Source of the DNA: a bacterium
Lineage (GTDB): Bacteria; CG2-30-53-67
Direction of reading: 5' to 3'
Assembly: GCA_919901565.1 (NCBI GenBank)
Contig: CAKKPE010000005.1
Location: 1-46,766, forward strand
DNA: 46,766 nucleotides
The notes beneath the pieces are model-generated. The model saw only the letters and a program-made list of their open reading frames with translations. It was not told the origin of the DNA and searched no databases. Positions 22,592 to 43,006 of the stretch are shown piece after piece; the first letter of the stretch is position 1, and each line of letters begins with the position of its first letter. The translations under genes were made by a program, and so were the position numbers.

Positions 22592-22646
22592 TTGACATTG
22601 CGTGAGTTGGGTGGGTATACTGCGATCTATGGTGGGTTGAAGTGGG
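22592..22646 (+). promoter_or_regulatory. mraZ promoter with TGGG boxes (probable MraZ operator)
   Basis: TTGACA (22592-22597), an 18-nt spacer and TATACT (22616-22621) form a near-consensus promoter. TGGG occurs four times: 22608-22611 and 22612-22615 inside the spacer, and 22633-22636 and 22643-22646 downstream. The last two are exactly 10 bp apart, matching the known MraZ pattern of TGGGN units separated by 5 bp. Autorepression by MraZ at this site is inferred. Confidence 0.65.
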
Positions 22647-22662
22647 ATTATGTGGAGGATGG

Positions 22663-23097
22663 ATGTTCCGGGGCAAGTTCAACCACAACATCGATGCCAA
22701 AGGGCGGCTGAATTTTCCGGCCAAGTTTCGGGAAGTCCTTTCCGGCAATTACGAAGAAAAATTGATTGTTGTTAAATACAACAGGTGTCTTCGCGCCTAT
22801 CCGCTTTCCGAATGGATCGCCTTCGAAAAATCAAAGAGCCAGCAGTACAGGAACCAGGCACAGGAAGATACCCTGAGGATGGTTCTGAGCTCACTCGCGG
22901 AGTGTACCATTGACAAGCAGGGAAGGATCCTGATTCCCCAGGACTTGCGGGACTATGCCGGGCTGTCCAAAGAGGTGGTCCTCATCGGCATGTTCAAGAA
23001 GATCGAGATCTGGGATAAGAAACGGCAAGAGGAGCATGAGGCCGGAGTTCAGGAGTCTCAGGATTTGGGAGAGGCGCTCACGCAACTCGGTTTGTAG
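22663..23097 (+). CDS. mraZ: Transcriptional regulator MraZ
   Basis: 144 residues from the ATG at 22663, with GGAGG at 22654-22658. It contains two AbrB-like swapped-hairpin repeats: FRGKFNHNIDAKGRLNFPAKFRE at the start, and AECTIDKQGRILIPQDLRDYAGL at about 81-103. The DxKGR and DxQGR elements are the paired DNA-contact motifs. MraZ binds TGGG repeats before its own operon and represses dcw genes, so it probably acts on the boxes at 22608-22646. It opens the division cluster and is followed by the STAS gene, not directly by rsmH. Confidence 0.95.
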   Translation: MFRGKFNHNIDAKGRLNFPAKFREVLSGNYEEKLIVVKYNRCLRAYPLSEWIAFEKSKSQQYRNQAQEDTLRMVLSSLAECTIDKQGRILIPQDLRDYAGLSKEVVLIGMFKKIEIWDKKRQEEHEAGVQESQDLGEALTQLGL

Positions 23098-23175
23098 CCG
23101 CTTGTAAATAAAGTTCTTGCCTTCGTGTCTTTGCGGCAAATGGGTTCCGGCTTGTCCGGCTTGGGAGGATACAAC

Positions 23176-23622
23176 ATGGCAACTCTAAAGAACCAGAAGG
23201 TCAAGATCATGATCCTGAAACCGGATTGTGATATCGACGTGAGTGACATGGACCGGATCTGCGAGATCATCGATCAGTACAGCGGCAAAGGATACACCTT
23301 CTCCATTCTGGACTTGGGGGCCGTCAGTCACGTGAACTTCCTGGGCCTGAGGCGGTTATCTCAGGCGGCCGTGCGGCAGCGCAAAGCAGGAGGCGGGCTC
23401 GCCCTGACCGGGATCAACGGGTATTTGAAAAACATCTTCCAGATCGTCGGGGTATACGGCGATTTCCAGTACGTGACAAGCTGCTCCACCGGGATTCAGA
23501 AGATCCAGGAGGATCAGCAGGTCCGGGACATTGATGTGGCCGTGATCAACGGCAAAAGCGTGAAGGGATTCGGCAGGCCGTTTGTGCATGCATCGGCGCT
23601 TCAGAAGTACAAAGAACAATAA
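23176..23622 (+). CDS. STAS-domain protein inside the dcw cluster
   Basis: 148 residues from the ATG at 23176, behind GGGAGGA. Residues about 10-110 form a STAS (anti-sigma-factor-antagonist) domain: FSILDLGAVSHVNFLGLRRL, then GGGLALTGINGYLKNIFQIVGV. Where SpoIIAA-like proteins carry D-S-S/T-G with the phosphorylated serine, this one has N53-F54-L55-G56, so standard switch phosphorylation looks absent. A C-terminal extension of about 35 residues (VRDIDVAVINGKSVKGFGRP onward) follows and is not familiar. It lies between mraZ and rsmH, 24 bp before rsmH, so it is co-transcribed with division genes. The role is unknown. Confidence 0.75.
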   Translation: MATLKNQKVKIMILKPDCDIDVSDMDRICEIIDQYSGKGYTFSILDLGAVSHVNFLGLRRLSQAAVRQRKAGGGLALTGINGYLKNIFQIVGVYGDFQYVTSCSTGIQKIQEDQQVRDIDVAVINGKSVKGFGRPFVHASALQKYKEQ

Positions 23623-23646: not shown

Positions 23647-24588
23647 ATGCAGACAAGACACCGGCCGGTCATGCGGGAAGAGTCCTTATCCATTCTGGAT
23701 ATCAGGCCGGGCCGTGTCTATGTGGACGCGACCCTCGGGGACGGCGGTCACGCCGAAATGATGCTGAAAAAATCCTCTCCGGACGGGATCATCATAGGCA
23801 TCGACCGGGACCCCGAAGCGATTGCACGTGCTTCGGAAAGGTTTGGCCCTTTCAGAAACCGGATACAGGTCATCAAGGGGAATTTCCGGGATCTCTGCGG
23901 ACTGATACGGGAGGCCGGATTCGATTCAGTGGATGGTGTCTTGATGGATCTGGGAGTTTCCATGATTCAGGTTGTTACTCCCTCGCGCGGGTTCAGCTTT
24001 ATGCTGGACGCCCCGCTCGATATGCGGATGAATCCTGAGGAACCGGTCCCTACGGCCTACGATCTCGTGAATGGCGCAGGGATCGATCAACTCCGGAAGA
24101 TCCTTGTGGAATACGGGGAAGAGAAGAGATGGCGCTCGGTGGCATCGGCGATCCTGAAGGCAAGAGAAAAAGGTCCGGTCCGTACCACAAGAGAACTTGC
24201 AGGTTTGATAGAAAAGGCCCTTCCTGGTGCAAGGCGATACAAGATCCATCCCGCCACTCGGACATTCCAGGCCCTCCGGATCGCAGTCAATGATGAGTTG
24301 AATGCATTACGCGAAGGTCTGGAGGGGGCCGTGAAGATCCTCAAGTCAGGAGGCCGCCTCTGCGTGATCTCTTTTCATTCCCTCGAGGACAGGATTGTAA
24401 AACAGTTTTTCCATGCGCTGGAAAAGGGGTGTACCTGTCCTCCTGATATTCCTGTTTGTGCATGCGGAAAGTTACCCGTGCTCAGGCGGATGACTAAAAA
24501 GCCGGTCATGGCTTCGCCGCAGGAGGTTGAAAGCAACCCATGGGCACGAAGCGCTAAACTGAGGGCTGCAGAAAAAATAGAGAGGTAA
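23647..24588 (+). CDS. rsmH: 16S rRNA (cytosine-1402-N4) methyltransferase
   Basis: 313 residues. RsmH (MraW) methylates N4 of C1402 in the ribosomal P site. The motifs are RHRPVMREESLSIL at the start, YVDATLGDGGHAEMML (SAM motif I), GVLMDLGVSMIQV, RGFSFMLDAPLDMRMNP and the C-terminal VISFHSLEDRIVKQFF. A short insertion with Cys residues (CTCPPDIPVCACG), typical of many RsmH proteins, follows. GAAGG at 23632-23636 is about ten bases from the ATG. The gap to ftsL is 2 bp. Confidence 0.95.
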   Translation: MQTRHRPVMREESLSILDIRPGRVYVDATLGDGGHAEMMLKKSSPDGIIIGIDRDPEAIARASERFGPFRNRIQVIKGNFRDLCGLIREAGFDSVDGVLMDLGVSMIQVVTPSRGFSFMLDAPLDMRMNPEEPVPTAYDLVNGAGIDQLRKILVEYGEEKRWRSVASAILKAREKGPVRTTRELAGLIEKALPGARRYKIHPATRTFQALRIAVNDELNALREGLEGAVKILKSGGRLCVISFHSLEDRIVKQFFHALEKGCTCPPDIPVCACGKLPVLRRMTKKPVMASPQEVESNPWARSAKLRAAEKIER

Positions 24589-24590
24589 CC

Positions 24591-24947
24591 ATGAAAAACA
24601 GTTCAGGGGTTCTGCTCGGGTCTCAAAGGATAGATGTCTTTTCCAAGAAGAAGACCGACCGGATACAGATGCACTGGTCCTATCTGTTCGTGGTCCTGTT
24701 TTGTATCTTCGTCGGAATTTTCGCAGTATGGGAAAGGGTACAGTACGTCGGTATCGGATATGACATCCAGGTCATGAAACAGGAACATGAAAAGCTTCTC
24801 CAGGATAAGCGGGAGCTCCTTCTGGAATACAATACCTCGATTTCCCTGGACAAGGTTGAAGAACGGGCCCGGAAGGAATTAAGGATGCAGGTCCCGGCAG
24901 CGGATCAGATTTTTTATGTGAAGGAATCCAGGGGCAGGCAAAGGTAA
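24591..24947 (+). CDS. ftsL: Cell division protein FtsL
   Basis: 118 residues. A cytoplasmic basic N-terminus (about 1-25) leads to one membrane segment (SYLFVVLFCIFVGIFAVWERV, roughly 29-50). A periplasmic coiled coil (IQVMKQEHEKLLQDKRELLLEY, about 57-80) follows, then EERARKELRMQVPAADQIFYV, the usual FtsL end. FtsL forms a complex with FtsB and FtsQ and activates FtsW-FtsI. Sequence similarity in this family is low, so the call rests on topology and its place between rsmH and ftsI. The gap to ftsI is 102 bp. Confidence 0.9.
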   Translation: MKNSSGVLLGSQRIDVFSKKKTDRIQMHWSYLFVVLFCIFVGIFAVWERVQYVGIGYDIQVMKQEHEKLLQDKRELLLEYNTSISLDKVEERARKELRMQVPAADQIFYVKESRGRQR

Positions 24948-41242: not shown

Positions 41243-43006
41243 ATGAACCTTGATGAAAAGCGAAAGAAGCGTCTCGCTTCCGAGTATGGTGAAACCTGGA
41301 ACCCTGTGAAAGGCGGGGTCAGGGTGGCATTGGTCTATCCGAACAGCTATTCCGTAGGGATGTCCAACCTGGGCTTCCAGGCCATCTACCATATCCTGAA
41401 CCAGCGTGACGATGTGACCTGTGAACGTGTTTTTCTTCCGGACAGGGAGGGGAGGGAAAAAGCTGAAACGCGTGAGGATCTTTGCCGGTCGTTCCCGTCC
41501 GGGCGCCTGCTGAGGACATTTGATATCCTCGCTTTTTCCGTCTCTTTTGAACTGGATTACGTCCACCTTGTCGAGATCCTTCAAAAAAACAAGATTCCTC
41601 CTTTACGCAGCCAGAGAGAATACGGGCGGGATCCCATGGTCTGGATCGGCGGTGTAGCGCTCTCCATCAATCCCGAACCTCTTGCGGATTTTGCCGACGT
41701 CATGTTCATCGGCGAAGCCGAAGAGATGATCCAGGAGGCCATGGATGCAATCGCAGGGAACCCGGTCAGGGACCGTGAAGGATTCAAACTATTCTCCAGG
41801 GCATGCCTGGGGCTGGAAGGGGTCTATTTCCCCCACGCCTACGCCTTTGATTACGACTCCCTCGGGAGGGTGGACAGGGTCGAACACGATCCGGATTTCC
41901 CGCAGCGCATCAGGCGGCGCTGGATCAGGGATCTGGACCGGATGCCGACCGTCTCCCGGGTTATGACCCCGGATACGGAACTGAACGACATGTTCCTGGT
42001 GGAACTGGACCGCGGGTGCGGCCGGCATTGCCGGTTCTGTGCGGCCGGATATATCTACAGGCCGCCCCGGTTCCGGAGCCTCGATGGGGTCATGAGATCG
42101 GTTCGAGAAGGGCTTTCCCATACGGACCGGATCGGACTGGTGGGCGCTGCTGTCTCGGATTATCCCCGGATGTCTGAACTGGTCAGGGAGATCCGTTCCT
42201 GCGGTGCGAGGATCTCCGTCTCTTCCCTCCGGGCCGATTCGCTCACTCCGGAACTCATGTCTGCGCTTGCAGAAAGCGGGCACAAGACCATCTCTCTGGC
42301 CCCTGAAGGGGGAAGTCAGCGCATGCGTGAGATCATCAACAAAGGGATTGAGGAGAAGGACATCCTGAATGCCTGCCGGATGGCCCTGGGGTACCGGATC
42401 CTGAATCTCAGGCTTTATTTCATGGTGGGGCTCCCTTCCGAGGAGACCGTGGATATCGAGGCCATAGCGGACCTTGTCTTGAAAATCAGGGAAATCCAGA
42501 AGCAGGCCGGGAGGGAGCAGGGCCGGATCGGGAGGATTACGGTGAGCCTGAACAGCTTTGTGCCCAAGCCTCATACGCCTTTCCAGTGGTTTCCCATGAA
42601 CAAAAAAGATGCATTAGCAAAAAAAATAGGTTATATTAAAAAACGGCTGCACCAGAAAGGGAATATCACGGTCATCCAGGACCTTCCCAAATGGTCGGTT
42701 ATCCAGGGGCTCCTCTCACGGGGAGACCGGCGGGTCAGTTCCCTGCTGGTTTCCGTGGTCAGCGGGGGGGGCAACTGGGCCCAGGCCCTGAAAGAGTCGG
42801 GTGAGGTTCTGGCCGGCTCGCCTTTTCGTGAGCGGGAAAGAGATGAGATCTTTCCCTGGGATATTGTTGAACCGGGATGCCGCCGGGACTATCTGTACCA
42901 GGAGTATCAGCGGTCCGCTTCAGGACGTTTGACCCCCGCGTGTCCAGAGGATTTGGCGTGTCACCGGTGCGGCGTCTGCGGGGAATCCGAGGAACGTCAT
43001 GGCTGA
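41243..43006 (+). CDS. Radical SAM protein of the TIGR03960 type
   Basis: 587 residues. The N-terminal part has a B12-binding-like region (VALVYPNSYSVGMSNLGFQA, FDILAFSVSFELDYVHLVEIL). The radical SAM core starts LDRGCGRHCRFCAAGYIYRPP with C259-x3-C263-x2-C266. LAPEGGSQRMREIINKGIEE and FVPKPHTPFQWFPM are conserved. This family is often fused or adjacent to a DUF2344 protein; here none follows, but the C-terminal Cys-rich tail (CPEDLACHRCGVCGESEE) could hold a second metal site. The substrate is not known. It lies 27 bp after ftsZ and overlaps pgeF by 8 bp. Confidence 0.85.
   Translation: MNLDEKRKKRLASEYGETWNPVKGGVRVALVYPNSYSVGMSNLGFQAIYHILNQRDDVTCERVFLPDREGREKAETREDLCRSFPSGRLLRTFDILAFSVSFELDYVHLVEILQKNKIPPLRSQREYGRDPMVWIGGVALSINPEPLADFADVMFIGEAEEMIQEAMDAIAGNPVRDREGFKLFSRACLGLEGVYFPHAYAFDYDSLGRVDRVEHDPDFPQRIRRRWIRDLDRMPTVSRVMTPDTELNDMFLVELDRGCGRHCRFCAAGYIYRPPRFRSLDGVMRSVREGLSHTDRIGLVGAAVSDYPRMSELVREIRSCGARISVSSLRADSLTPELMSALAESGHKTISLAPEGGSQRMREIINKGIEEKDILNACRMALGYRILNLRLYFMVGLPSEETVDIEAIADLVLKIREIQKQAGREQGRIGRITVSLNSFVPKPHTPFQWFPMNKKDALAKKIGYIKKRLHQKGNITVIQDLPKWSVIQGLLSRGDRRVSSLLVSVVSGGGNWAQALKESGEVLAGSPFRERERDEIFPWDIVEPGCRRDYLYQEYQRSASGRLTPACPEDLACHRCGVCGESEERHG

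Follow-up and report, generated by a model that had tools for sequence, protein, structure and literature searches.

The dcw cluster is among the best-studied bacterial gene clusters. The DNA analysed here (the window) is a bacterial contig of 46,766 nucleotides in which a gene for a STAS-domain protein stands between mraZ and rsmH, the first genes of this cluster (Table 1). We asked whether the position of this gene is peculiar to one genome or belongs to the operon, whether the protein could still work as a phosphorylation switch, and which partner it may serve.

Table 1. Features of the mraZ-rsmH region, in window coordinates
Feature	Position	Strand	Basis
Sigma70-type promoter of the mraZ operon, TTGACA-N18-TATACT	22592..22621	+	11/12 consensus matches
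MraZ-box-like direct repeats, GTGGG-N5-GTGGG-N5-GTGGA, period 10	22632..22656	+	TGGG at 22633, 22643
mraZ, 144 aa, dcw operon transcriptional regulator	22663..23097	+	Pfam MraZ x2, 49.4 and 63.8 bits
Ribosome binding site of the STAS gene, GGGAGGA	23163..23169	+	read from sequence
STAS gene, 148 aa	23176..23622	+	ORF and Pfam match; Phe55 in place of the phospho-acceptor Ser
C-terminal extension, about residues 119-148	23530..23619	+	alignment; kept only in the window's family
rsmH (mraW), 16S rRNA methyltransferase	23647..24588	+	ORF listing, genome search
ftsL, next dcw gene	24591..24947	+	ORF listing

A STAS-fold protein without the acceptor serine

The gene starts with ATG, with GGGAGGA upstream, and its product matches the Pfam STAS profile (PF01740) over residues 7-96 with 33.9 bits (E 2.9e-8), above the curated cut-off of 22.6 bits; the identity proposed in a preliminary description of the locus stands. 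The STAS fold is a sheet of 4-5 strands with alternating helices, and the AlphaFold model of the protein (22-sequence alignment, pLDDT 84.4, pTM 0.80) has this fold. Its top Foldseek matches are 4hyl, SpoIIAA (in complex with SpoIIAB), RsbS and TM1442, the first three at a probability of 1.00. The core motif is HVNFLG (residues 52-57); its N54-F55-L56-G57 corresponds to D57-S58-S59-G60 of SpoIIAA, which places Phe55 at the position of Ser58. In SpoIIAA, Ser58 is the phosphorylatable Ser/Thr site at the N-terminus of helix 2. The preliminary description had noted NFLG in place of DSSG and hence the absence of the usual phospho-acceptor serine, and this is confirmed.

Beyond the minimal STAS domain the protein continues for about 35–40 residues, of which, in the alignment, about 20 are common to the window's family and the last 12–15 to its genus only. 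AlphaFold models this extension as a short pair of strands (119-126 and 136-138) with falling confidence. The extra C-terminal segment of about 35 residues described previously is therefore real, but it is a family-level trait and not general to STAS genes of the dcw cluster.

A probable member of the MraZ-controlled operon

The promoter and MraZ-box-like repeats lie before mraZ, and the stretch from mraZ to the STAS gene showed neither a terminator nor another promoter as good as this one, making it most likely, from the arrangement of these elements, that the STAS gene belongs to the operon controlled by MraZ. Both elements recur in other genomes: four relatives of the same family (L002-L005) have a comparable TTGACA...TATAC(T) block ahead of mraZ, and period-10 TGGG repeats precede this gene in most of the 21 loci inspected, being inexact in L007 and L008 and absent in L072. 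The single transcription unit described earlier is thus apparent in the layout: mraZ, the STAS gene and rsmH lie on one strand behind a strong sigma70-like promoter, with no detected terminator. Downstream the cluster runs on in the usual order to ftsZ (gene names from position and size). Directly 3' of ftsZ a 587-aa ORF (41243-43006) reads like a radical-SAM protein and precedes genes that read like pgeF, yggS, proC, yggT and divIVA.

Beyond the mraZ TAG itself, no stop codon interrupts the frame that leads across the 78-nt spacer into the STAS ORF (23095-23175). Read-through or a natural mraZ-STAS fusion was considered and rejected, as in-frame spacing occurs in 42 of 142 STAS entries, about the one third expected by chance; the long open frames around STAS genes in high-GC genomes overlap mraZ in a different frame and are not fusions either. 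At the other end of the gene, 27 of the 142 entries (some loci counted repeatedly) have a potential rsmH start that shares 4 nt with the end of the STAS gene, an overlap that would allow translational coupling. Such overlap or tight spacing to rsmH is frequent (for example in most of L129-L141) and is what would be expected if the protein were an accessory of RsmH in 30S maturation, helping the enzyme to act on the ribosome with no relation to MraZ. RsmH works without a STAS partner in most bacteria, however, and we regard this explanation as improbable.

The place between mraZ and rsmH is conserved

All five genomes of the same family carry the STAS gene between mraZ and rsmH (51–78% identity), so that the gene is not absent from the dcw cluster of close relatives, while in two genomes of the same class but another family (G006 and G007) mraZ abuts rsmH and there is no STAS gene. 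To define the wider distribution, STAS and rsmH coordinates were compared in 386 genomes of 258 families and the loci then read, giving the mraZ-STAS-rsmH arrangement in at least 12 of the 258 families; phylum-level groups, those of G035, G031, G071 and G217, were surveyed in addition, and the last has the arrangement in 18 of its 20 genomes. In total we could confirm the order in 109 genomes, which belong to 27 coded families, and additionally in G501, giving at least 110 genomes of 28 families. It is present in every genome of family f30 whose locus was read. The preliminary description had looked to relatives for both the place and the NFLG motif: position and acceptor loss are both kept far beyond close relatives, but the exact NFLG is not. 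Conservation of these two features points to a role tied to the operon.

On contigs showing both sides the STAS gene was never found beside mraZ alone or rsmH alone, and synteny thus cannot separate a partner of MraZ from a partner of RsmH. The same constancy bears on the idea that the protein is a scaffold of the division site or envelope, binding the cytoplasmic tail of FtsL, FtsI, FtsQ or FtsW or a cytosolic division factor. This we consider unlikely, as we do the accompanying notion that the gene heads the operon only for co-production with division proteins. Membership in an operon with the full dcw cluster would fit a scaffold, and the STAS domains of SLC26/SulP proteins are examples of association with membrane machines. 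STAS proteins outside sigma-factor signalling do bind such machines, as MlaB binds MlaF (PMC7367683). Against it, in every lineage examined the gene keeps strictly to its place between mraZ and rsmH and is not next to ftsL or ftsI, and its sequence suggests no membrane segment.

One of the lineages appears to include a tractable model organism. The encapsulin EncA copy in G485 (L220) agrees with 4pt2, the EncA of M. xanthus, at 262 of 264 residues, and we infer that the copy in G460 (family f30) is identical to that of 4pt2. This encapsulin match indicates, indirectly, that Myxococcus has the dcw STAS gene (L100).

Two departures from the single-copy arrangement were seen. Genomes of family f184 (loci L142, L143, L144, L145, L147 and L148) carry a tandem pair of STAS genes in the mraZ-rsmH interval, both without the acceptor serine; the first (FMNAKG or YMNAKG) falls outside the main dcw STAS group in our first tree and the second (HVSLNA) inside it, which suggests that the first copy may be a second recruitment with the same acceptor loss. 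G004 has two dcw loci (L006 and L023) with different STAS copies, 60% and 53% identical to that of the window; one short contig of this genome, C71, could be a contaminant (reported contamination 3%).

Residues that set the dcw STAS proteins apart

We group as dcw STAS those genes, including that of the window, that lie between mraZ and rsmH and encode neither Ser nor Thr at position 55. Among 110 STAS proteins encoded at the dcw site, the position equivalent to Ser58 is Tyr in 65, Val in 11, Leu in 10, Ala in 10, Phe in 6, Gly, Ile and Met in 2 each, and His and Ser in 1 each, whereas 49 STAS genes sampled elsewhere have Ser (47) or Thr (2). The contrast, 1 of 110 against 49 of 49, has a Fisher p of 1.6e-40 that is merely descriptive because the sequences are related, and the 49 of 49 holds for a sample biased to the non-dcw sequences most similar to the query. 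The same pattern was seen in every group sampled. The general dcw motif is H-x-[NDS]-[YFVLA]-x-[GDA], and NFLG itself is confined to the window's relatives. Two apparent non-dcw exceptions with FISYMG (L047 and L048) proved to be dcw genes when their loci were read.

Individual sequences deviate further. G501 (L197:1718-2149) has WTSLKA in place of HVNFLG, again with no acceptor serine, and G008 (L061:2760-3095) has an aberrant core, ITSHRS, on a very long branch. The only dcw STAS gene found with Ser at the acceptor site, that of G513 (L153:1450-1845, HINSTG), sits in a dcw clade that looks basal and is marked by HIN[ATMS]TG motifs; it may retain the ancestral state.

Differences extend beyond the acceptor. 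When 69 dcw STAS domains were compared with 40 others, the most divergent positions were 55, 52, 83, 25, 86, 66 and 64; conserved and specific to the dcw set are H52 (61/69), Y83 (56/69) and G92 (67/69), absent or rarer in the 40. The remodelled and strongly conserved set thus comprises His52, an aromatic or hydrophobic residue at 55, Tyr83, Asn86 and positions 24-25. In the model the divergent positions fall on helices 1, 2 and 3 and on the loop that leads into helix 2, which, judged by the SpoIIAA-SpoIIAB complex, is probably the partner-binding side. Strong conservation on this side argues that a partner exists, and the change of residues argues that it is a new one. A dN/dS of about 0.2 between two genomes of the same genus indicates purifying selection.

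The altered residues also cluster around the loop at position 55, as would suit a nucleotide-responsive regulator that has kept the ability to bind NTPs and signals the presence of GTP or a related nucleotide to MraZ or RsmH, with a ligand in place of the kinase input. SpoIIAA is reported to bind GTP and to have weak NTPase activity (PMC8256260), and its Ser58 is reported to influence nucleotide binding. A bulky Tyr or Phe in place of the loop serine may however block the pocket, and we think such a regulator quite improbable.

Comparison with known STAS systems

The dcw STAS proteins resemble the single-domain SpoIIAA/RsbV proteins (TIGR00377) in fold and core length and probably share their ancestry, as related non-dcw genes lie beside RsbW-like kinases. 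They differ in lacking the acceptor Ser/Thr and a kinase or sigma gene in the operon, in their fixed place between mraZ and rsmH and in their own residues H52 and Y83; the window protein scores only 28.6 bits against the TIGR00377 cut-off of 53.45. The likeness in fold and profile nonetheless raises the possibility that the protein has remained an anti-sigma antagonist, a permanently active form of RsbV/SpoIIAA that ties up an RsbW-type anti-sigma kinase and so links the division genes to a sigma factor. Some host genomes do have RsbW-type kinases, and in G000 itself a single strong HATPase_c_2 match lies within a 589-aa frame of a different contig. However, five genomes that carry the dcw STAS gene and are 92–100% complete (G001, G005, G136, G273 and G316) gave no HATPase_c_2 match above about 32 bits, scores no higher than histidine kinases of the common type reach. 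Nor was a kinase or sigma gene found among the dcw operon ORFs, and the surface that should contact SpoIIAB is remodelled. Kinase partner-switching is evidently not needed in those five genomes, and together with the lost acceptor and the kinase-free operon they make an anti-sigma partner switch a poor prospect.

Other STAS systems are less close. MlaB, a STAS_2 subunit of the MlaFEDB ABC transporter, is reported to be a stable STAS subunit that works without phosphorylation (PMC7367683); the window protein reaches 17.7 bits with STAS_2 (PF13466), below the cut-off of 29.2, and its gene neighbours are mraZ and rsmH with no ABC transporter gene, so an MlaB-like protein was rejected. Stressosome membership was rejected as well: the 6jhk structure of RsbS ranks with the top Foldseek matches (TM-score 0.79, normalised to the length of the target), but no rsbR or rsbT is adjacent and the conserved Ser/Thr phosphosite of RsbS/RsbR is missing. 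CapS, a STAS-wHTH repressor with its kinase CapK (PMC13373217), sets a precedent for a STAS protein with a direct part in repressing transcription of its own operon. It has a conserved phospho-Ser54 and a C-terminal wHTH, whereas the dcw STAS protein has neither, and in the dcw operon the DNA-binding role belongs to MraZ.

Probable capture of a partner-switch protein

In the first tree all dcw STAS sequences except the first-position f184 copies lie on one side of a branch with SH-aLRT of about 90, and the nearest non-dcw sequences have HINST or QINST motifs. With the motif masked and long branches removed, the main dcw group requires three changes on the free tree, and a single dcw clade is not rejected (AU test, p 0.535, motif masked). 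The trees, which rest on 102–108 columns only, are compatible with one main origin. The non-dcw relatives L012, L054 and L060 (HINST/HINSL) adjoin small RsbW-like kinases, two of them also lying near SpoIIE-type phosphatase genes (sequences read by eye). This neighbourhood suggests that the dcw STAS protein is a former phosphoswitch taken up by the division operon; the simplest history would be that the mraZ operon captured a canonical partner-switch STAS gene, which then lost its acceptor.

A possible adaptor of MraZ and RsmH

MraZ represses dcw genes through MraZ boxes, and antagonism between MraZ and MraW has been described in E. coli, according to PMC8475190, citing Eraso et al. 2014. Because the STAS protein is always made together with these two reported antagonists, we favour an adaptor that acts on MraZ and/or RsmH. 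Our tentative proposal, rated somewhat short of an even chance, is that the protein is a former phosphoswitch that has become an adaptor of the MraZ-RsmH pair, competent to bind constitutively. On this view an ancestral STAS protein with the SpoIIAA/RsbV fold would once have worked in a kinase-driven partner switch, its gene would have been captured by the mraZ operon, and the phosphorylatable serine would then have been lost. His52, residue 55, Tyr83, Asn86 and positions 24-25 would form a surface for MraZ and/or RsmH. Contact with MraZ, or a bridge between MraZ and RsmH, would let the protein adjust how strongly the dcw operon is repressed. Its level would be set by gene dosage within an autoregulated operon and not by a kinase.

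Modelled as a single chain read through the mraZ stop (TAG taken as Q, partly paired alignment), one copy each of MraZ, linker and STAS give two well-folded domains with no confident docking (pTM 0.51); this prediction neither supports nor excludes binding to an MraZ ring. Many bacteria, including G006 and G007, have MraZ and RsmH without the STAS protein, which is thus not required for MraZ function in general. Put more broadly, the protein may be a third, so far unrecognised component of the MraZ-RsmH module, a former phosphoswitch that regulates the division operon either constitutively or in response to a ligand, a possibility we also hold with reserve and would not call probable. If this is true, several phylum-level groups have retained such a component at its site between the mraZ and rsmH genes.

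Implications

A literature search for STAS proteins with mraZ or dcw returned no relevant report, although subscription papers or genome annotation may still mention one, and a review of STAS-only proteins makes no mention of cell division. A conserved gene in the second position of the dcw cluster, present in at least 28 families, thus seems to be without description. The dcw STAS gene is widespread, conserved in place and devoid of the phospho-acceptor; the preliminary description was correct but understated, and the gene looks like an overlooked standard part of the operon in those lineages. It also provides a clear natural example in which a phosphoswitch domain, once moved to a new operon, has lost its switch. 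With a protein encoded exactly between mraZ and rsmH, and present in Myxococcus as the encapsulin match indicates, the adjacency and antagonism of MraZ and RsmH would become a testable question.
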